From contig JAEUKI010000021.1 in NCBI GenBank assembly GCA_016793325.1, positions 1 to 64,000 of the forward strand: 64,000 nt of DNA, read 5' to 3'. Positions within the stretch are counted from its first letter, which is position 1. Each line of letters starts with the position of its first letter. This document shows, piece by piece, positions 1,397-11,142 of this stretch. Below the pieces are notes generated by a model. The model saw only the letters and a program-made list of their open reading frames with translations. It was not told the origin of the DNA and made no database searches. The position numbers and the translations under genes were made by a program. Source of the stretch: Myxococcales bacterium (GTDB lineage: Bacteria > Myxococcota_A > Polyangia > Polyangiales > Ga0077539).

Positions 1397-1687
1397 CTAC
1401 ACCACGAGGGTTCCCTCGAAGTCGACCGGTTCACGAACGCCGTGGTGCTCGGTCTTGCTCGCTGCTCCGTCGTCCAAGAAGTAGAACCGCATGCTGTCCT
1501 CCTTGCCGTCGATCAACCCGAGCAGCCGCGCCCGCAGCTTCACCCAATCGGTCGCGTCGAGTTTGCACTCGAACACCGAGTATTGCACGCGCTGTCCGTA
1601 GTCTTCGCACGCTTGCGCGACCTTGCGCAGCCGCTTGCGTCCCGCCTTGCTCGTCGTCGCGACGTCGTAGCTCACCAAGATCACCAC
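1397..1687 (-). CDS. cas2: CRISPR-associated endonuclease Cas2
   Basis: This 96-residue protein is the normal size for Cas2. It opens with the ferredoxin-fold strand MVILVSYDV, whose Asp is the conserved metal-site residue, followed by KRLRKVAQACEDYGQRVQYSVFEC, the signature of type I-C Cas2. Cas2 dimers bridge two Cas1 dimers in the spacer-integration complex. The gene is last in the cas operon, 16 bp after cas1, and is followed directly by the leader and array. Start ATG at 1687. Confidence 0.97.
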   Translation of the reverse strand: MVILVSYDVATTSKAGRKRLRKVAQACEDYGQRVQYSVFECKLDATDWVKLRARLLGLIDGKEDSMRFYFLDDGAASKTEHHGVREPVDFEGTLVV

Positions 1688-1703: not shown

Positions 1704-2735
1704 TCACTTCATGACAAACGGCGGGTACGGCCGAAGGTCGCCTCGAATCGCTCGCGCGAGCAGTCGCGCCTGCACCATCGCGACCATGCCCCAACGAACC
1801 TCGTCGCCGGTGTACGGATGGGTCACGGTGTCTCGCTTGCGCGTCTGATACTCCGTGAGAAACAGCTTGCGCGTCGCCTCCGTCATCTCGACGCCACCTC
1901 CGTCGCGAACGACGAAGTCCCGTTCGCGCACCTGCCCGAGGTTCACCATCGCGACCACCATGCGGTCGACGAACGCCACTCGTAGCTCCTCCATCAGATC
2001 GAGCGCGAGCGACGGTCGCCCCGGTCGCTCTTCGTGCAAGAACCCGACGTCGGGGTCGAGCCCCGCAGACCCGAGCGCCGCGACGCAGTCGTGCATGAGC
2101 ATCGTGTAGCCGAAGCTCAACATCGCGTTCACGGGATCGCGCGGAGGACGCCGAGACCGACCCTTGAACCGCAGTCCTTCTTCTCGCGTCCGCAGCGCGT
2201 GGTCGAACCAACCGAAGTACCTCGCAGCAGCCTCGCCCTCGAGCCCACGCAGAACGTCCACCGACTCGGCTCTCTCCAACTGCGACAGGCCTCGCGCGAG
2301 CGAATCGACGACGCTCGCCCCCGCGCTGCGAGCTTCGTCGTCGCCGTCGCGCATCGCGCGCTGCACGAACGTCCTCGTGTTCGCGACCTTTCCCGTGATG
2401 AAGCTGCGCGCGAGCTCGGCGCACTGCGAAGGGTCGTCCGCGGCGCGATGTTGTGTCCGACGCAACACGACGCTGCCAGCGCCCGTCCCGACGACACGAC
2501 CCAAGAACCGGCCAGACTCGCTCACGAAGGTCACGTCGATCCCTTCGTCCATGCACGCTCCCATCGCGTCGGGGCTCATTCCCACACGCCCGAAGCAGAC
2601 GACTCCACCCACGTGAAGCCTCGGAATGCGCAGGAGCTCTTCCTTCTCGAACTTCACGACGAGCGACTCGTGCTCCTTCGAGATGTACGCGCCCTGCGTG
2701 GTCACATACAGCGTGTTCGCGACGGTCACTGCCAT
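1704..2735 (-). CDS. cas1: CRISPR integrase Cas1 (type I-C)
   Basis: The protein has 343 residues, typical of I-C Cas1. The N-terminal beta domain (about 1-90) is followed by the helical catalytic domain. Candidate metal ligands are visible: Glu in GLEGEAAARYF (about 165-174), His in GFLHEERPGRPSLALDLMEE (His234), and the Asp/Glu of the same segment (about 246-250). With Cas2 it integrates new spacers at the leader-proximal repeat. It sits 3 bp after the cas4 stop and 16 bp before cas2, so the three adaptation genes are almost certainly co-translated. No key residue appears to be missing. Confidence 0.97.
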   Translation of the reverse strand: MAVTVANTLYVTTQGAYISKEHESLVVKFEKEELLRIPRLHVGGVVCFGRVGMSPDAMGACMDEGIDVTFVSESGRFLGRVVGTGAGSVVLRRTQHRAADDPSQCAELARSFITGKVANTRTFVQRAMRDGDDEARSAGASVVDSLARGLSQLERAESVDVLRGLEGEAAARYFGWFDHALRTREEGLRFKGRSRRPPRDPVNAMLSFGYTMLMHDCVAALGSAGLDPDVGFLHEERPGRPSLALDLMEELRVAFVDRMVVAMVNLGQVRERDFVVRDGGGVEMTEATRKLFLTEYQTRKRDTVTHPYTGDEVRWGMVAMVQARLLARAIRGDLRPYPPFVMK

Positions 2736-2738
2736 CGA

Positions 2739-3368
2739 TCACTCCGACTCCGTTCCTCGGATCAGCGAACGGATGTAGCCGCTGGCGTCCAGTCGAACCT
2801 TTGGCATGCACGCCTGCTTCAACGAACACTCCTCGCACTTCGCCCCGTACTCCGCCGCGGGAACGACCGCGCCTCGCACCATCGCGTGCAGCTCCCGCGC
2901 GAGCCGCTCGGTCCTCGCTCGCAGCGCTGGCGAGAACACCACCTCGCGACGACGTCGCGATTTGCCGTGGTACAGCGCGCCGGACTCGACCGTGACGCCC
3001 ATCATTTCTTCGAGCGCGATCGCCTGCGCGCAGAGCTGGACCTCGTCGTGTCCCCACTCGCCGCGACGACCGCGCTTGTACTCGACGGGATGAACCCGCT
3101 CTCGGCCCCGATCGTCGCGCACGAACTCCACGACGTCCGCGCGACCGACGAGCCGAAGTCGCTCGCTTCGCAACCACAGCGCGCGCTCGGCGCGTACTTC
3201 TGGTCGTCGCTCACCTCCCGGTCGATCCGCGCGCTCGTGAAGAAGCGTCCCCTCCACGGTCCGAACGTTGTCCGCCCACACGCGATCGACGTGGATCAGC
3301 GCGCACTGCCTGGGGCAAAACGACAGGTGCTGCAGCGCTGACATCGGCAGAAAGTCATCGACGTCCAT
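2739..3368 (-). CDS. cas4: Cas4 RecB-family exonuclease with Fe-S cluster
   Basis: This 209-residue protein contains the RecB-like nuclease core: His44 in LLHERAD, Asp78 in VGRADVVEF, and Glu96 with Lys98 in VEYKRG, plus a downstream Gln. Cys18 (in SFCPRQC) together with Cys178, Cys181 and Cys187 (in KCEECSLKQAC) make up the four-cysteine set expected to hold a 4Fe-4S cluster. In type I-C systems Cas4 works with Cas1-Cas2 to trim prespacers at the PAM and set their orientation. It is a separate gene here, not a Cas4-Cas1 fusion, and lies 19 bp after cas7. Confidence 0.96.
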   Translation of the reverse strand: MDVDDFLPMSALQHLSFCPRQCALIHVDRVWADNVRTVEGTLLHERADRPGGERRPEVRAERALWLRSERLRLVGRADVVEFVRDDRGRERVHPVEYKRGRRGEWGHDEVQLCAQAIALEEMMGVTVESGALYHGKSRRRREVVFSPALRARTERLARELHAMVRGAVVPAAEYGAKCEECSLKQACMPKVRLDASGYIRSLIRGTESE

Positions 3369-3387: not shown

Positions 3388-4359
3388 CTACGTCGCCGCG
3401 CTGAGCTTCACTCCGCCCGCGCCGTCCCGCTCGACGCGAACCCGGTGCAGAACGCGCTCGCTGCCGAGCTCGCGCTCGTCGAGCTTCACGCTGAAGTCTC
3501 CGAACGCCCGCGGCGCCTTGTTCGTGTCGCGCTGAGTCACCGTCACGCGATCGAACAGCCGGTGCGCCGCGCACAACCCGAGCCCGTGCTCGTCCTCGTG
3601 CTCGAACACGATCAGCGCCCGCGTCGCCATGAGCCCGCGCGCCGCGCTGCGATCGTGCTCGAACATGTTTTCGAGCGCCTCCCACAAGAGCGCCAGGTCG
3701 TTGTCGCCGAACCCCGTCCCCGCGACGCGCTGCCCGCTCGCGCGCTTCGCGCACGACGGGCTGATGAACCCGTGCGCGCGATACAGCCCGTACGGCACCG
3801 TCGCCTTGCGCCCCATCGTCCGGTTGTCGCCCTTCTGCTTCGCGGCTTCTTCTTCCGTCGCGACCGCCATGCGCGTGATCGAGTGCTCGAGCGCGACCAC
3901 GGGAGCGACGCTGCGCGCGAAGGTCAATTGCACGGGGCCGCGCACCTGCCCAGCGTTCACTCCGGTGCTCATCACCGCGCCGAACGTCCGCACGTCGAAG
4001 AAGTCGTCACACATTTTCAATCGCGCGCGGTCCGTCCCCTCGCCAGAGGTCTTCTTGTCCTTCACCTCGATGCCCGCTTCGTGCACCTTCGCTTCGATCA
4101 CGGCGTTGAGCACCGCCTTCTCCTTCACGAAGATGTCGTACGGCGCCGCGCCGCCGTGCTTGATCAGCACGTAGTTGCGCACCTTGCGCTTCAAGCACAC
4201 GTCGGTGACTAGACCGTGGCCCGTCTGCGCGTCGATGCGCGGGAGGTTGCCAGCGTCGGGGTCCCCGTTGGGATTTCCGTCCTGCACGTCGAACAGCAGC
4301 ACGAAGTCGTACCGCTTGGTGATGTCCGAGCCGCGCTCGAGCTTCTTCTTGTCGTTCAT
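3388..4359 (-). CDS. cas7: Cas7 (Csd2 family), type I-C Cascade backbone
   Basis: This is a 323-residue RAMP protein. The N-terminal strand YDFVLLFDVQDGNPNGDPDAGN is the characteristic opening of Csd2/Cas7c. A central segment with RTFGAVMS and GQVRGPVQLTFARS matches the family's crRNA-contacting core. Several copies coat the crRNA spacer in Cascade. A GAGG ribosome-binding site lies just upstream of the ATG at 4359. Unlike other junctions in this operon, which are under about 45 bp, the gap to the preceding gene is 261 bp. Confidence 0.97.
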   Translation of the reverse strand: MNDKKKLERGSDITKRYDFVLLFDVQDGNPNGDPDAGNLPRIDAQTGHGLVTDVCLKRKVRNYVLIKHGGAAPYDIFVKEKAVLNAVIEAKVHEAGIEVKDKKTSGEGTDRARLKMCDDFFDVRTFGAVMSTGVNAGQVRGPVQLTFARSVAPVVALEHSITRMAVATEEEAAKQKGDNRTMGRKATVPYGLYRAHGFISPSCAKRASGQRVAGTGFGDNDLALLWEALENMFEHDRSAARGLMATRALIVFEHEDEHGLGLCAAHRLFDRVTVTQRDTNKAPRAFGDFSVKLDERELGSERVLHRVRVERDGAGGVKLSAAT

Positions 4360-4620
4360 CGTCGCCTCGTTGTCGGTGTTGGTTGTTGCGCTGCTGAGCG
4401 CTTCCGTTTGGCCTTCGATCTGCTTCGGACTCGTCCGCCGCCGCTGTCGCAGCGATCGCCCCGGCCGCAGGGGCCTCCGGCGCGTTGCGCGCCGCGCGCC
4501 TCGAAGCGGTTCGCCCCTGCGCCCTGGGGATTCGCTACTCCAATGCGGCGTCGATCGTGTCGCGCGCGCGTCGGGAGTCGACGCACGAGCGTCGATGGCC
4601 CTCGCGCGTGCGTCGATCGC
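4360..4620. other. 261-bp unexplained gap inside the cas operon
   Basis: I see no convincing gene here on either strand. The stretch is very G+C rich. It contains three direct copies of GCGTCGAT at 4548, 4587 and 4608, spaced 39 and 21 bp, and a CAGGGGC ... GCCCCTG inverted pair near 4480-4520. It may hold an internal promoter or operator for cas7-cas4-cas1-cas2, or be the decayed remainder of a gene lost beside the extra cas-operon gene. Confidence 0.35.
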
Positions 4621-5451
4621 TCACGTCGGCTCTTCCGCGCCTCCGCCCTTGCCCTTTGTCGACTTTCGCTCAGCGAGCCCGAGCTGGATCAAGTAGTCCC
4701 GACGCGAGATCTCCGTTCGAAGCAGCTCGCTCCACTCCTCGAACCACGCTCGTAGCACCCGCAGCTTGCGAAGGTACTCGGCATCGTCCGCAGCGGGGCT
4801 CTTCTCGCTCTTCTTCGAGGCCTTCTCGGGCTCGGGCTTCTTGCTCGCCGCCTTCGCTCCCTTCGCACCATCGCTGCCGGTGTCGCCGCTGGCGGTGCGC
4901 ACGAGACCGAGCAATCGCTTTCGCGCCTCGACGTCGAGCCCCCGCTCCGCGAGGCGCGCGATCGCTGCCTTGCCGCGCTCGGTCGACTCGAGCTTGTCCA
5001 AGCGGTCGAGCACCGTCGAGACAACGAGCACCGACGCAGCGCCGCGCTCCGCGCTGAGGTCCTTGAGCACCGCCTTGGCCTCCGCAGGAAACGTGTGCTG
5101 CAACGTCGCTCGGATTTTCGCGAGAAGCTTCTCGTCGGTCGCATCCAAGGTCGTGATGGCCGTCGCGACGTCGACGTCGATCGCCGGTTCGTCCTCGTCG
5201 TCGAGTGACAGGTCCATTCCCGTGACCGCGTTGAGCTTTCGCCAGCCCTCGACGCGAACCGCCTTGCTGAATCCTACCCGCTCCGCGGCCGCGCGAATCG
5301 GCTTGGATCGGTTCACCGCGAGGATCAGTTGCAGCGTCCGCGCGGGCGTCTCTTCGAGCACCTCGCGCGTCACTGTCACGGTCTCGAAGTCCTCGTGCGC
5401 GTCGCCGCTGTCGGTCGCCTTGTTGTCTGCCTTGCTTTTGCTCGTCGCCAT
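4621..5451 (-). CDS. Unknown 276-aa protein embedded in the type I-C operon
   Basis: The ATG at 5451 lies 5 bp after the cas8c stop, and a strong GGGAGG ribosome-binding site is embedded in the cas8c 3' end, so translation is well supported. The predicted 276-aa protein is mostly alpha-helical. It has an acidic and polar N-terminus (1-25), a helical domain (about 25-190, with TREVLEETPARTLQLILAVN and DEKLLAKIRATLQ), a Lys/Ala/Ser/Glu-rich linker (about 195-220), and a C-terminal helix rich in Trp, Arg and Leu (about 225-265, AWFEEWSELLRTEISRRDYL) ending in a basic GKGGG tail. It has no signal peptide, membrane span, nuclease motif or ATPase motif that I can see. The canonical I-C operon has no gene in this position. 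It could be an added Cascade subunit, an adaptation or anti-plasmid accessory factor, or a lineage-specific protein captured by the operon. I do not recognise the family. Confidence 0.88.
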   Translation of the reverse strand: MATSKSKADNKATDSGDAHEDFETVTVTREVLEETPARTLQLILAVNRSKPIRAAAERVGFSKAVRVEGWRKLNAVTGMDLSLDDEDEPAIDVDVATAITTLDATDEKLLAKIRATLQHTFPAEAKAVLKDLSAERGAASVLVVSTVLDRLDKLESTERGKAAIARLAERGLDVEARKRLLGLVRTASGDTGSDGAKGAKAASKKPEPEKASKKSEKSPAADDAEYLRKLRVLRAWFEEWSELLRTEISRRDYLIQLGLAERKSTKGKGGGAEEPT

Positions 5452-5456
5452 GATCG

Positions 5457-7421
5457 TCAATTTCCTCCCGTGGCTTCTGCCTTCGATCGTTTTGCTTCCT
5501 TCGCTTCTGCGATGCGTCGAAACGTGTGCGAGCGCTGGTGGTAGTAGCCGAGCGCGAACAAGCCCTGCTGCTCGAGGTTGAGCACCGCCGGGAGCGGAGC
5601 CCCGTCGAGCAGATCCATCACTTCGCCGAGCTCGCGATCCGCCGCGCCGTTGTCGAGCTTCGCGATGTGGTGCTGCGCGCGCTGCAAGAGCGGGCCGAAC
5701 ACCGCTGCGGGCGTCGTCGACGCGCTCGCGAAGAACTTGTCTCGAATCGACGCGTTGAGGTCTTGCCCTTGCGCCTGCAACTGCAACGACTCCAGCACGC
5801 TGAACAGTCGTCCGAGCACGTAGCTCACCTCTGTGTTCTTGGGATTCAACGCCACGGTCACCTCTCTCCTCTCGGTCCATGCGGGTCGTCGTAGACACGC
5901 TCGAATCAGCCCCATCCGCACATCGAGCGCGCGTCGATCGCTCGTTCCGTCGCCGCTCGGCAGGCGAATCCTCGCCAACGCCGCCCGCAAGAACTCCGCG
6001 CCGAGCGGCTCGCCATACAACGCCGATCGAACGAGTCGCGCGGCCAACGCAGAGCTCAAGCCTCCCTTGTCGCCGTCCGCCTCGGGGCGCGACTGCATCA
6101 CGCGAAGCAGCTCTCGAACGGTGGGCGGTCGCCACGGATGCGCTGGGTCTCGCGGCTCGCCCACGAGCAGCGACTCGAACCACCATTGAACGTTTCTCTT
6201 CACCTCGGCGGCCGTCGTCTCGAACCAGTCGCGAACGACCACGCGCGACGCGTTGCTGCCGAGCGTCGCTGCGTAGAAGCGCGACACATCGTCGAGCGGA
6301 ACGACCTCGAGGTGTTTCCATACCGCGTCGATCTGCCGGCGGTAGCTCTCGGGATCCGCCTCGGATGCGCCGCCAGAGCTGTCCAAGAGGTCGACGATCA
6401 CATCCTCGAGCTCGGGGCCTTCGTTCGCTCCCTCGGCAGGCTTCGACCAATAGATCATCACCGAGTCGTCGGCGACTTGAACGCCCTGCCGAAATCGCCG
6501 GCCCCGTCCCTTGTCCTCCGAGAGCATCGCGTTGATCGCTCGCGCGTACGCCGTTGCCGCGTGCGACGACATCGGCGCGTTCTCGCCTTGCTCGAAGCCC
6601 CACGAACGAAACGCCGCAGCGTTGAACGAGACGAGGAACGCCCCGCTCGACTGCGCTTCGGGCACGCGCTTGAGGGCAGGGTGCAGCTTCACCATCGGGC
6701 TGACGTCGCCAGTGACGACACAGCGCGCGACCGTGCCTTCGTCGCTCTGGGCGCTCACGCGCTTGCGCCACCATGCCGCGACGCTCTCGCGCTCGTGAAC
6801 GAGCATCCCTCGGTCGGTATCCAGCGCGAACGCGATCGTCTCGTCGCCGCTCCACACGTGAGGCTCGCTCGCGACGAGCGCTGCTGGCTCGCTCTCGACC
6901 TGGGCGTCAGCTTTCTTCGCGCCCTTCTTCGCGGCTTTTTTCGCGCCCTTCTTCGCCGCTCCCTTGGCGGGCACGAGCGCGATCGCGTGCACTCTTGCGC
7001 GTTGCGCATCGAGGTCCGCGCAGAACCGCGAGAGCGCTCGCAGCCCATCGTCGTCGCACTCGCGAAGCGCTTCGTTGACGCTCTCGGCGAACGCGAGCGC
7101 CCGTTCGTCGGCGTTTCGCTTCGCTTTGTCCTCGCCTGCCTTCTGTTTCGCCTCGGTGTCTTCGTCGACCTTCTTCGGCTGCCCCAACGCGTACTGAGCA
7201 TTGTCGACGAGAAATCCGCTCTTCACGGCGACCGTGCGCCCGAGCGGCGGCACGGGAACCCGCTTCTCTCGCGCCTTTCCCCGCTCGTCGAAGTTCGACT
7301 GGACCTGAACGACCTTTCCGTCTGCGTCGAGCACGATCACGAAGCTCACCGGTCGCATGACGAATGCGGTGTCTTCCATCAGCCCTTTTCGCTCGGCGTA
7401 CTCCACCAACGCGTGCAGCAT
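5457..7421 (-). CDS. cas8c: Cas8c (Csd1), type I-C Cascade large subunit
   Basis: The protein has 654 residues, somewhat longer than the roughly 580-600 usual for Csd1. Family features include LVDNAQYALG near 71-80, the central SFNAAAFRSWG, NPKNTEVSYVLGRLFSVLE in the C-terminal half, and GYYHQR near the C-terminus. Cas8c recognises the PAM and recruits Cas3. Part of the extra length comes from a low-complexity Lys/Ala insertion at about 152-172 (AKKGAKKAAKKGAKKA). In other I-C systems the small subunit Cas11c is translated from an internal start in this gene; I have not located one here with confidence. A GGAGGAG ribosome-binding site precedes the ATG at 7421. The gene runs 25 bp after cas5c. 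Confidence 0.96.
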   Translation of the reverse strand: MLHALVEYAERKGLMEDTAFVMRPVSFVIVLDADGKVVQVQSNFDERGKAREKRVPVPPLGRTVAVKSGFLVDNAQYALGQPKKVDEDTEAKQKAGEDKAKRNADERALAFAESVNEALRECDDDGLRALSRFCADLDAQRARVHAIALVPAKGAAKKGAKKAAKKGAKKADAQVESEPAALVASEPHVWSGDETIAFALDTDRGMLVHERESVAAWWRKRVSAQSDEGTVARCVVTGDVSPMVKLHPALKRVPEAQSSGAFLVSFNAAAFRSWGFEQGENAPMSSHAATAYARAINAMLSEDKGRGRRFRQGVQVADDSVMIYWSKPAEGANEGPELEDVIVDLLDSSGGASEADPESYRRQIDAVWKHLEVVPLDDVSRFYAATLGSNASRVVVRDWFETTAAEVKRNVQWWFESLLVGEPRDPAHPWRPPTVRELLRVMQSRPEADGDKGGLSSALAARLVRSALYGEPLGAEFLRAALARIRLPSGDGTSDRRALDVRMGLIRACLRRPAWTERREVTVALNPKNTEVSYVLGRLFSVLESLQLQAQGQDLNASIRDKFFASASTTPAAVFGPLLQRAQHHIAKLDNGAADRELGEVMDLLDGAPLPAVLNLEQQGLFALGYYHQRSHTFRRIAEAKEAKRSKAEATGGN

Positions 7422-7446: not shown

Positions 7447-8142
7447 TTAGCCGTGCCGCGAGTTCATCGCGATGACCTCGCTGCGCGGCGGGACGCGCAG
7501 CACCCCCGACACGAGCCGCGCTTCGAAGAACAGCGGGCGGGCGGGCCCCTTCGTGAGGTCGCGATCGCTCTCGTCCGTCCACTCGAAGTCGTAGAACATC
7601 TGTCCGAGCGAACGCTGAACACCGAACTTCGCCTCGGCGCACTCGAACGCTTCGGGAGCCTCTTCGATCCGCGCTTCGAACTCGCGGCAGCCGAGGTACG
7701 GCGCGCGGTAGTGCTGACCACGCTTCAACCGATCGCGAAACATGTTGAGGTACTTGGGGACGTTGCAGTCGTCGTTGGGCTCTTCGGTCAGCGTGAAGCC
7801 TGCGGTGATCACGTAGTCCACGTCGCGCAGCGCCACGGTGTTTCGCTGCGCTCGGTCTTCGTCCGCGATCAGTTCACCCGTCCGAGGGCTCATCGCCGAG
7901 TTGACCTCGTTGCGCCGAAAGCTCGCCCACTGGATCGCGTTGAGCACCGCGATCTCGCGAATCTCCCAACGGATCTGCGGCTTCCACAGGACGCACGCGA
8001 AGAGCGCTCGCGCGGCGGAGGGCGTGATCACTTCGTAGCTAACCCGCTCGACCTTGAGCTCGGGTCTCGTGAAGCACGCGAGCTCGCCTCGAACACGGAG
8101 CTTCACCGGACCGCTGGAACGCGCTTGGAGCGCACCACCCAT
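7447..8142 (-). CDS. cas5: Cas5c (Cas5d), pre-crRNA endoribonuclease and Cascade subunit
   Basis: This RAMP protein of about 231 residues replaces Cas6 in type I-C: it cleaves the repeat hairpin and stays on the crRNA 5' handle. The segment VERVSYEVITPSAARA holds the conserved Tyr (Tyr36), and KRGQHYRAPYLGCREF holds the Lys/His pair expected to form the active site. I chose the ATG at 8142, about 10 bp after a GGAGG site; a GTG at 8148 in the same frame is also possible. No separate cas6 was found in the window, which agrees with this role. It lies 45 bp downstream of cas3. Confidence 0.95.
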   Translation of the reverse strand: MGGALQARSSGPVKLRVRGELACFTRPELKVERVSYEVITPSAARALFACVLWKPQIRWEIREIAVLNAIQWASFRRNEVNSAMSPRTGELIADEDRAQRNTVALRDVDYVITAGFTLTEEPNDDCNVPKYLNMFRDRLKRGQHYRAPYLGCREFEARIEEAPEAFECAEAKFGVQRSLGQMFYDFEWTDESDRDLTKGPARPLFFEARLVSGVLRVPPRSEVIAMNSRHG

Positions 8143-8187
8143 TGCCACTCTTCCTCCCGCTCGTGGTTCGTCACGAGCGCGGCGCGA

Positions 8188-10578
8188 TCACAGCACAGTC
8201 GCGCCGGGGCTCACAACGCCCAATCGCTCGACATCCAAGCCGAAGCGCTCGCCGTATGCGTCTTTGAACACTGTTGGAATATACAAAACTACCTCACCCG
8301 CCGACAGCACCCGCCCGTCTCGCATCCACTCGTCGACGAGCTCTCGCTTCACGTTCACCGAGTAGCTTTGCAGCTTTCTCAGCCATCGTCCGGGCGGTGC
8401 ACCCGCAGCCATCCCACGTTGGAGTTCACTCACCAGCGACGGCCCGTCTCCCCACGGAACGACCACTGGTACCGCCCACTCGTCGATGATCCGAACCGCC
8501 TCGGCGACCGAGCGAAAGTTCAACGCGCTTCGCAGTTGCTGAACTTCTCTGGTGTCGAGCTCCGCGACGTTTTGCCGGTAGAAGCGCTCGAAGTATTCGT
8601 TCATGACCGCTGGATCGAACAGATCGAGCGCCCTCCGCTGACTGCGCGCCAATCCCAGCATCGCCTTCGCGCAGTGGTAGCCATCCTGCAGCGGACCATT
8701 GGGCGGCAGCGTCTCTGCATCGAACACTCGAAGCTCGCCGCCTTCGCGGCCGAGTCTTCCCTCTCGATTGCAACGCCCTGCCGCCTGCGCGAGCGCGTCG
8801 AGCCCAGCCAGCGCGCGAAACACGACGGCGAAGTCGATGTCGACCCCCGCTTCGACGAGCTGCGTCGCGATGGCTCGGACCGGTTCTCCGCGTGCCTTGC
8901 GCTCTCGGATGGACCGAAGCACCGAGCGCCGATGCTCGCCGCACATCAGCGCTGAGAGATGCACGGTCGAGTGATCCCCGATCACTTCATCGACGAGCCG
9001 ACAGAGTTCTTGCGCATCCGCACGCTTGTGAACGATCGCCAGCGCGTCTCGCTCGCGTGCGATCTCCGTCGCAAGCGCCCGATACGGCGTCGGTTGCTCG
9101 GTCTCGGGCCAACGCACGCGAACACGCCGAAGTACATCGAAGGCCTCCCGGTGGCCCGAGTAGATCTCGCGTTGATCCGTGATCCTGCTCTCGCCGAGCA
9201 CTGGCAAGTCCCACGCCGGTTGCGTTGCAGTGCACACGACGACGGTGGTGCCGAAGTCCTGCACCAACGTCTCCAAGACTTCGAGGATCGCGCGAAGGTA
9301 CTTGAGCGGAACGGTCTGCGCTTCGTCGAGCACCAGCACGCTGTTGGCGAGCCGATGCAGCTTGCGGCAGCGACCCGAGCGATTCGAGAACAGGCTCTCG
9401 AAGAGCTGAACCGTCGTCGTCACGACGATCGGCGCGTCCCAGTTTTCACTCGCGAGCCGATTCCACGCGGTCTCACGAAAGATCGCGCGTCTCGCCGCGC
9501 CGCTCTCCGCGCGCTTTGCGACGAGCCCCGCGTCGTCGAACGCCGAGTGATGCTCCAGGACAACGCCGGCACGATCGCCGAGCGCCGTGCGAAACGCGTC
9601 TGCGCTCTGCTCCGTGATCGAGGTGAACGGGATCGCCACGACGAGTCGGTCCTTACCGTGGAGCTTCGCGTGTTCGAGCGCGAACGAGAGCGAGGCCAGC
9701 GTCTTTCCCCCGCCCGTTGGAACGGTCAGCGTAAAGAACCCTGGCGTCGACGTTGCCTTTTCGATGCATTGCGAACGCACGGCGCGACGCACACGCGCGA
9801 CGGGTCCGTCGTCGCTCCCACGCTCGATCGACGCCATGTGCTCGTGCAAGCGCTCTGCGAGCTCGCCCATGGTCACCGCCGCGCTCGATCGCGCTTCGCT
9901 CCTTCTCGCATCGAAGAACGCCTCTGTGTCGAGGAAGTCTCCGTCACAGAGCGCCGAGAACAGCATGCGTGTCCACAGCTCGACCTTTCGATGCGCCGCT
10001 GCGCTGCGGTCCTTCACCGCCACCTTGTCGGGTACCGCAGCGCGCGTGACGCGAGCCGGTGTGCGTGCCGCGAGCAAATCCGCTGGCGCTCGCGGCCTTG
10101 CCTCGTCGAGCAGCCACTGTCCCCTCGAGTCCAAGCGCGCCGTGAGCTCCGCCGCGTCTGCGAGCCCCGCGTGGTGGCCCGCGATCGCCCACGCGACTGC
10201 GTTGACGCACCATTGGTCCTCGCGAGCGAGTCCCTGCTCCTTCGCCCACGCGCGAACGTACATCGCGCCTGCCGTCGAATGATCGACGCGCTTTCGCCCA
10301 GCGGGCGGTGCGCTCGCATCGATCGCTGCGTCGTCGACGTGCGCTTCACTCGGCGCCGACGAGCTCCGGATGTAGTCCTGAAACGCGCTGCTGTACTTGC
10401 CGAGGTCGTGCCAGCGCCCCGCCAGCGCGGCCCAATCGCCCGCTCCCCACTTGCTCGCGAACGATCGCGAGAGCTCGCCCACACACTCGAGATGCTCTCG
10501 CAGGCTGTGCACCCGGGGCCCATCCGGTTCGACTGTCGTATGTGCCCAGTTGGGGTCTTCCGCCGCCTTCTCTCCCAT
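8188..10578 (-). CDS. cas3: Cas3 nuclease-helicase (HD domain fused to SF2 helicase)
   Basis: With the ATG at 10578 the product is 796 residues. The frame stays open a further 70 codons upstream, but that part is low-quality sequence and I excluded it. The N-terminal HD nuclease domain shows His24, His29 and the HD pair at 57-58 (GRWHDLGKYSSAFQ). The helicase has Walker A TVPTGGGKT (about 285-293), a DEAQ Walker B box (418-421), motif III CTATQ (about 449-453) and a C-terminal QAAGRCNREGR motif VI. It is recruited by Cascade to unwind and degrade target DNA. First gene of the operon. Confidence 0.96.
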   Translation of the reverse strand: MGEKAAEDPNWAHTTVEPDGPRVHSLREHLECVGELSRSFASKWGAGDWAALAGRWHDLGKYSSAFQDYIRSSSAPSEAHVDDAAIDASAPPAGRKRVDHSTAGAMYVRAWAKEQGLAREDQWCVNAVAWAIAGHHAGLADAAELTARLDSRGQWLLDEARPRAPADLLAARTPARVTRAAVPDKVAVKDRSAAAHRKVELWTRMLFSALCDGDFLDTEAFFDARRSEARSSAAVTMGELAERLHEHMASIERGSDDGPVARVRRAVRSQCIEKATSTPGFFTLTVPTGGGKTLASLSFALEHAKLHGKDRLVVAIPFTSITEQSADAFRTALGDRAGVVLEHHSAFDDAGLVAKRAESGAARRAIFRETAWNRLASENWDAPIVVTTTVQLFESLFSNRSGRCRKLHRLANSVLVLDEAQTVPLKYLRAILEVLETLVQDFGTTVVVCTATQPAWDLPVLGESRITDQREIYSGHREAFDVLRRVRVRWPETEQPTPYRALATEIARERDALAIVHKRADAQELCRLVDEVIGDHSTVHLSALMCGEHRRSVLRSIRERKARGEPVRAIATQLVEAGVDIDFAVVFRALAGLDALAQAAGRCNREGRLGREGGELRVFDAETLPPNGPLQDGYHCAKAMLGLARSQRRALDLFDPAVMNEYFERFYRQNVAELDTREVQQLRSALNFRSVAEAVRIIDEWAVPVVVPWGDGPSLVSELQRGMAAGAPPGRWLRKLQSYSVNVKRELVDEWMRDGRVLSAGEVVLYIPTVFKDAYGERFGLDVERLGVVSPGATVL

Positions 10579-11142
10579 GCGTCGATCTTGCCACGACCAC
10601 GCATGCAGTGATCGCTTCGTCGTGAACGCGGTACAGCGCTCGCGACGATCACCGAAGAGGAACTGAGCGAAACGTCGGCGGCCGAGACCACTGAGATACG
10701 GTCGGAATGAACGTCGCGTCACCGTTCCGCGCGTGAGTACGCGAGGGTTTTGCGGGGAGCTGCGCAGCGTTCCGCTGTTGGCGTGCATGCATCCAGGCCT
10801 TCGGCGCGACTTCGACGATTCTGCTCGCGGTCCACGTTGCCAACACCGTCAGAACCTGCCGCAAACTCGACCACGACTTGATCGCGTCCATCACGCAGCT
10901 CGCAACTGGCGAGGCCACCGTCGACGCCACTGCGCTCGTCCCTGCCATCGAGCAGCCCAGTCTCGCGCCCGACAGCGCTGCCGCGGCGTGTGCCTCCCCT
11001 TCCAAGCCTCGACCGCACCTTACCACTGGGTCGATCCCGCACTGGACCGCGCCTTCCCTTCGATCCTCGCGTACACTCTCCACGCTCCGCTCGCGTGCCG
11101 AATCCGCGCACGACGGAGGCACGAATCGGGAGGACTTTGTCG
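10579..11142. other. 564-bp divergent intergenic region, cas operon promoter side
   Basis: This segment separates cas3 (minus) from the TerB-like gene (plus), so it should hold both promoters. I could not fix promoter elements. No stable RNA gene is apparent. One plus-strand frame between roughly 10790 and 10990 reads like a helical peptide (ILLAVHVANTVRTCRKLDHD), with no convincing start and a poor downstream continuation, so it may be the remnant of a gene. A GGGAGGA site at 11128-11134 serves the next gene. Confidence 0.4.

Follow-up and report, generated by a model that had tools for sequence, protein, structure and literature searches.

The window, by which we mean the whole 64,000-nucleotide stretch of Myxococcales DNA analysed here, carries a complete type I-C CRISPR-Cas operon on its minus strand. 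The gene order is cas3-cas5-cas8c-ORFX-cas7-cas4-cas1-cas2, followed by the CRISPR array, and apart from ORFX it is canonical for type I-C. The additional gene occupies the identical place in the operon of a second genome, G006 (locus L037), which belongs to another genus of the same GTDB family. The features of the locus are the following:

138-1212, no strand assigned: CRISPR array, 15 repeat copies
1397-1687, minus strand: cas2
1704-2735, minus strand: cas1
2739-3368, minus strand: cas4
3388-4359, minus strand: cas7 (Csd2), identified with Pfam and NCBIfam
4360-4620, minus strand: gap between ORFX and cas7, 261 nt, with 21-nt-periodic units and a predicted RNA fold at z -3.7
4543-4617, minus strand: array core within the gap, four units with (A/C)(T/C)CGACGC at 21-nt spacing
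4621-5451, minus strand: ORFX, 276 aa from the ATG, a helical protein with two modules, from a paralogous family in Myxococcota
5464-5469, minus strand: GGGAGG ribosome-binding site of ORFX, inside cas8c
5457-7421, minus strand: cas8c (Csd1), full length, identified with Pfam and NCBIfam
5457-5855, minus strand: Cas11c segment inside cas8c, with a GTG start at codon 523 and AGGAG at 5866-5870, 10 nt upstream; conserved in G006
7447-8148, minus strand: cas5c, identified with Pfam and NCBIfam
8188-10788, minus strand: cas3, with homology from near 10578, its likely start

An earlier note on this DNA had described an extra open frame between cas8c and cas7, with a ribosome-binding site within cas8c and a spacing of 5 bp from the cas8c stop, and this description holds: ORFX is a coding gene whose ATG follows the cas8c stop by 5 nt, with its GGGAGG located inside cas8c. 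In G006, cas8c and the ORFX orthologue overlap by a few bases, and an AGGAGG lies just upstream. The tight coupling of ORFX to cas8c is real, and some link to operon expression stands. The two orthologues share 54% identity (57% over 260 aa in the homology search), with pS 0.57, pN 0.32 and a dN/dS of about 0.4, like that of cas8c (53% identity, pS 0.63, pN 0.34); cas7 compared between the same genomes shows 73% identity, pS 0.52 and pN 0.19. Since the orthologue is conserved and its pS/pN regime is that of cas8c, ORFX is a real, maintained gene, and it is under purifying selection.

The AlphaFold model of ORFX, computed from an alignment of five sequences, displays ten helices and no strands, in agreement with the all-helical product proposed before; the termini and the linker are of low confidence, while the core modelled alone reaches pLDDT 80 and pTM 0.56. 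An hhalign comparison of the first half of the family profile with the second gives a probability of 94% (E 1.8e-7), which suggests that a helical module has been duplicated in this protein. ORFX shows full-length homology to its family and carries the C-terminal motif W-[FY]-x-E-W-S...R-R-D-x-L-I-x-L-G. Five columns are invariant in the family (G60, R150, A163, W236 and W240) and do not resemble an active site; like the earlier note, which saw no known catalytic motif in the sequence, we recognised none, and ORFX itself has no Pfam or NCBIfam match. Its net charge is 0, and that of many family members is negative, reaching -18. No DNA- or RNA-binding domain was recognised in ORFX.

Searches of Pfam, PADLOC, PHROGs, NCBIfam, the PDB and Rfam gave nothing convincing except a sub-threshold match to the NCBIfam family NF052641, 'PQLLE family protein', for which NCBIfam states no function. 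Foldseek searches, run for the full-length model against the PDB and BFVD and for the core against the PDB, returned best E values of 0.2-1.1, which are meaningless. The NF052641 profile is matched by 32 of 39 family members (E up to 0.1, best 1.8e-8), and none of the ten members run individually exceeds 32.4 bits, where the cut-off is 80. Neither ORFX nor its G006 orthologue matches this profile; it is probably a distant relative of NF052641, through the members of its family that do.

In type I-C systems the small subunit is translated from an internal start in cas8c (PMC7684278). Alignments of the solved Cas11c chains to the Cas8c encoded in the window fall on residues 523-636 (E 1e-17 to 1e-24), and Val 523 is a GTG codon in both the window and G006, with AGGAG 10 nt upstream in each; the neighbouring Val 521 is GTG in one genome and GTC in the other. 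Given this segment and its conserved start and ribosome-binding site, the usual internally translated small subunit seems to be present, and the native Cas11c appears from the sequence to be retained inside Cas8c. ORFX as a replacement for Cas11 was rejected, since Cas8c keeps both the segment and the internal start. Searches with ORFX against PDB chains gave no match beyond chance, and those with the family profile gave chance matches only. We found no similarity to Cas11 or any other Cas protein in sequence searches, nor to any small subunit in fold comparisons, for which the ORFX models were of moderate confidence (pTM 0.41 and 0.56). The Cas11-like or Cascade-associated role suggested in the earlier note is thus unsupported.

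Homologues of ORFX occur in 24 of the 57 relatives searched, and the family profile found matches in 37 of 379 Myxococcota genomes; the distribution is patchy, often with several copies per genome and with up to 11 matches in G029. They lie mostly away from cas genes, the pattern that the earlier note held to speak against a Cascade role: among about 40 related loci, a single one, the G006 homologue, proved to lie near cas genes when the Cas proteins of the window served as probes. Order and phylum searches yielded 11 Myxococcota I-C operons, of which two, both from one GTDB family, contain ORFX. In none of the other nine did coordinates or tblastn place a family gene in the cas8c-cas7 interval, although two of these operons end at a contig edge or close to one. 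Phylogenetically, the two cas-linked proteins group together (100/99), and their sister group is a pair of cas-unlinked proteins (99/94) from the same GTDB family. Since the cas-linked pair nests inside a mostly cas-unlinked family of Myxococcota paralogues, ORFX was captured into the operon, as one of the alternatives raised earlier, that of a captured lineage-specific gene, had anticipated.

Elsewhere the gene neighbours of family members are varied, as called with a simple codon-position heuristic in mostly draft assemblies. An obligate operon partner was considered and rejected, a HerA-like ATPase adjoining just one clade (10 loci in G029 and G001: L018, L019, L021, L023, L024, L025, L032, L040, L042 and L048). 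In that clade the ATPase gene lies downstream, mostly within a few bases of the family gene or after one small gene, with many copies in one genome; at L032 and L042 the small gene between the two is of the DUF2188 kind. Plasmid and phage collections contained no homologues of ORFX or of PQLLE proteins, and no clear empty site emerged from a search for the genes that flank the G006 locus.

The gap between ORFX and cas7, which the earlier note does not mention, is the second unusual element of the operon. In the window, lag 21 gives the best self-match among lags 10-45, with 103 matches against 73 expected (shuffle p<=0.0005), in an array that is short, with four clear units. The corresponding gap of G006 presents 161 lag-21 matches against 98 expected (sd 8) and eight units, oriented +++++---. 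As RNA, the gap is predicted to fold much more stably than its shuffles, with a z of -3.7 in the window and -10.1 in G006. The array is present in both operons that bear ORFX.

Upstream of cas3 the window has no 21-nt array. In G006, a 210-bp element upstream of cas3 (L037 11062-11290) is 94% identical to one at L090 1006-1215, which adjoins the CRISPR repeats with which contig C77 begins. When the pattern was searched across the whole G006 genome, array-type matches were confined to three places, namely the gap between ORFX and cas7, the region upstream of cas3 and the vicinity of the CRISPR array; the few other pattern matches look like chance. Contigs C56 and C77 probably join, since both begin inside a CRISPR array with an identical repeat, and if they do, the 210-bp elements may bracket the CRISPR-Cas locus of this draft assembly in direct orientation. 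Separately, two CRISPR spacers of G006, at L037 near 519 and at L090 near 50, overlap in the stretch ACGTGTCCAGCGGGTCGGCCA, as they would if both had been acquired from adjacent positions in a single target.

Taken globally, the flanks of family genes often carry short units at a 21-nt period that are private to each locus and often arranged in two blocks of opposite orientation (++++++++++----- at L053, --------+++++ at L054 and ++++++--- at L041, besides the +++++--- of G006). Flanking direct repeats were also considered as a general feature and set aside, being clear at G006 alone; a count of repeated 9-mers in the flanks is insensitive, as repeats are common in these genomes, and the lag test was used instead. 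Over the 450-bp 5' flanks of 43 family genes, the mean self-match z is 4.2 at lag 21 and 3.1 at lag 42, with adjacent lags near 0, against a mean lag-21 z of 0.5 in 73 control intergenic stretches. Only two controls exceed z=4: one is itself a family flank (L045) and the other is the region upstream of cas3 in G006. An array was scored where the best lag in one or the other flank was 21 or 42 and reached z>=3.5; on this rule, 30 of the 43 discovery genes pass. As this discovery set had itself suggested the pattern, an independent set from other genera was tested, in which 7 of 20 family genes pass, compared with 12 of 125 control genes from the same stretches, a control rate inflated by arrays in coding DNA (Fisher p=0.006); the flanks of the other 13 have no array. 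The link between gene and array across the ORFX family is real, and it is not universal.

Between genomes, the word composition of the array correlates with protein identity (Spearman 0.25, permutation p=0.008, owing in part to common ancestry of the flanking DNA in the most closely related pairs), while control regions from the same loci give 0.006 (p=0.53); the pattern is consistent with joint inheritance or joint evolution of array and protein. The array usually lies 5' of the gene in the relatives and is 3' of ORFX in the window. Four distant NF052641-type loci also have 21-nt arrays (L104, L107, L111 and L112); the one at L107 (G190), downstream of a distant NF052641-like gene, consists of eight copies of exactly 21 nt, CGACCTACTGAGACGACYYCA. 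Between two divergent family genes at L053 (G048) lies a single shared array, with ten units running one way and five the other. The cas3 gene of an I-C operon in G116 is preceded by a further 21-nt array (L066 1256-1471), whose units combine GCTGTCCGGATG with 9 variable nt; the contig has no ORFX-family gene.

The reading that we favour, tentatively and at somewhat less than an even chance, is that the captured ORFX and its array entered the type I-C operon together and were retained there, with ORFX recognising the array and setting operon expression. Mechanistically, ORFX would be made in step with Cas8c and would recognise the array either as DNA, with units two helical turns apart on one face, or, alternatively, as RNA, through the long hairpin that the array would form in the operon mRNA. 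In turn, ORFX would set the level of the cas7-cas4-cas1-cas2 half relative to the cas3-cas5-cas8c half, and in G006 it would act at the cas3 promoter too. We infer the binding and the resulting change in expression from the co-occurrence of gene and array, their co-variation, the array copies at control positions in G006 and the start coupled to cas8c. Against this mechanism stand the neutral or acidic charge of the proteins, the lack of a recognised binding domain, the many members without an array, the array at L066 without ORFX, the shortness of the array in the window and its position 3' of the gene, and the region upstream of cas3, which has no array in the window.

Almost as likely as regulation by ORFX is that gene and array form a self-maintaining or neutral cassette, of a kind common in these genomes, that landed in the cas operon by chance and has no CRISPR role. 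In favour of a passenger, the genes around most homologues are unrelated, copies are numerous in several genomes (G029 has up to 11 matches), and just two of the 11 I-C operons carry ORFX. A passenger would be harder to reconcile with purifying selection at the level of cas8c, with a position and a cas8c coupling kept across two genera at about 53% protein identity, and with the duplication of the array at other sites of the G006 locus.

The 210-bp element beside the CRISPR repeats of G006, nearly identical to that upstream of cas3 (94%), could also suggest an adaptation factor or an architectural factor of the CRISPR array, with ORFX binding arrays near the ends of the CRISPR locus as a host factor does at the leader. 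We regard this as improbable, since the L090 element sits at the end away from the cas2-side leader, and the gap between cas2 and the array lacks such units in both the window and G006.

An equally small place has to be given to a guide system resembling TIGR-Tas, in which a Nop-domain protein is accompanied by an array where edge repeats alternate with loop repeats, UG/CCA boxes are present and spacers are 9 nt long, giving a processed 36-nt guide RNA (PMC12045711). Several family arrays (L018, L066) alternate about 12 conserved nt with about 9 variable nt, the proteins are small and helical and adjoin the array, and at L050 and L054 lag 42 is stronger than lag 21, as in an alternating dual repeat. 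However, Pfam, PDB and fold searches gave no Nop-like match in sequence or fold, the units lack the UG...CCA boxes common to TIGR arrays (PMC12045711), many arrays flip orientation half way, and the units of the G006 arrays are nearly identical and without spacers, so that this idea, too, is very unlikely. Least probable is a Cas11-like or other Cascade subunit, a reading invited by a helical product encoded between cas8c and cas7 and coupled to cas8c, and countered by the Cas11c with internal start still in Cas8c, the lack of likeness to Cas11 or other Cas proteins, the mostly cas-unlinked relatives and the nine other I-C operons in which ORFX was not detected.

Beyond the regulation of this operon, a wider and more doubtful proposal is that the family represents an undescribed module, widespread in Myxococcota, in which a duplicated helical protein would read its own 21-nt array, as DNA or RNA, and which would have become a CRISPR-Cas controller in one lineage. 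If ORFX acts on the array, CRISPR-Cas expression would be set by a regulator working from the middle of the operon. Across the phylum, the family is linked to short arrays that are strictly periodic and often inverted. This has the look of a protein-nucleic acid system not described before, and the capture into a type I-C operon offers a natural, testable setting for it. In general terms, an extra gene within a cas operon need not encode a Cas subunit.

Among open-licence papers we found none on a protein-array system of the ORFX type, and every known kind to which ORFX was compared failed in a defining feature. Type I-C Cas11c (PDB 7KHA, 8G9S) is likewise small, helical and encoded next to cas8c sequence, but the true Cas11c is an in-frame part of cas8c, whereas ORFX is a separate gene with no sequence similarity to it. 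TIGR-Tas systems (PMC12045711) share the gene for a small helical protein beside a tandem array of short units, upstream or downstream; in the ORFX family, in contrast, no Nop domain was found, and its units have a period of 21, often stand in inverted blocks, and by inspection are private to each locus with no shared C/D boxes. As for NF052641, its true members show an internal duplication by eye, as the ORFX family does, both have a C-terminal R-x2-LL-x2-LG-like motif, and several NF052641-like genes also have 21-nt arrays, although the tested relatives of ORFX score far under the 80-bit cut-off and ORFX itself is unmatched. Regulators with operator or iteron arrays are a known general type. 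ORFX differs from them in having no known DNA-binding domain, its binding here being a candidate activity, and resembles them in the arrangement of the locus, with repeats two helical turns apart adjoining the gene of a candidate binding protein.
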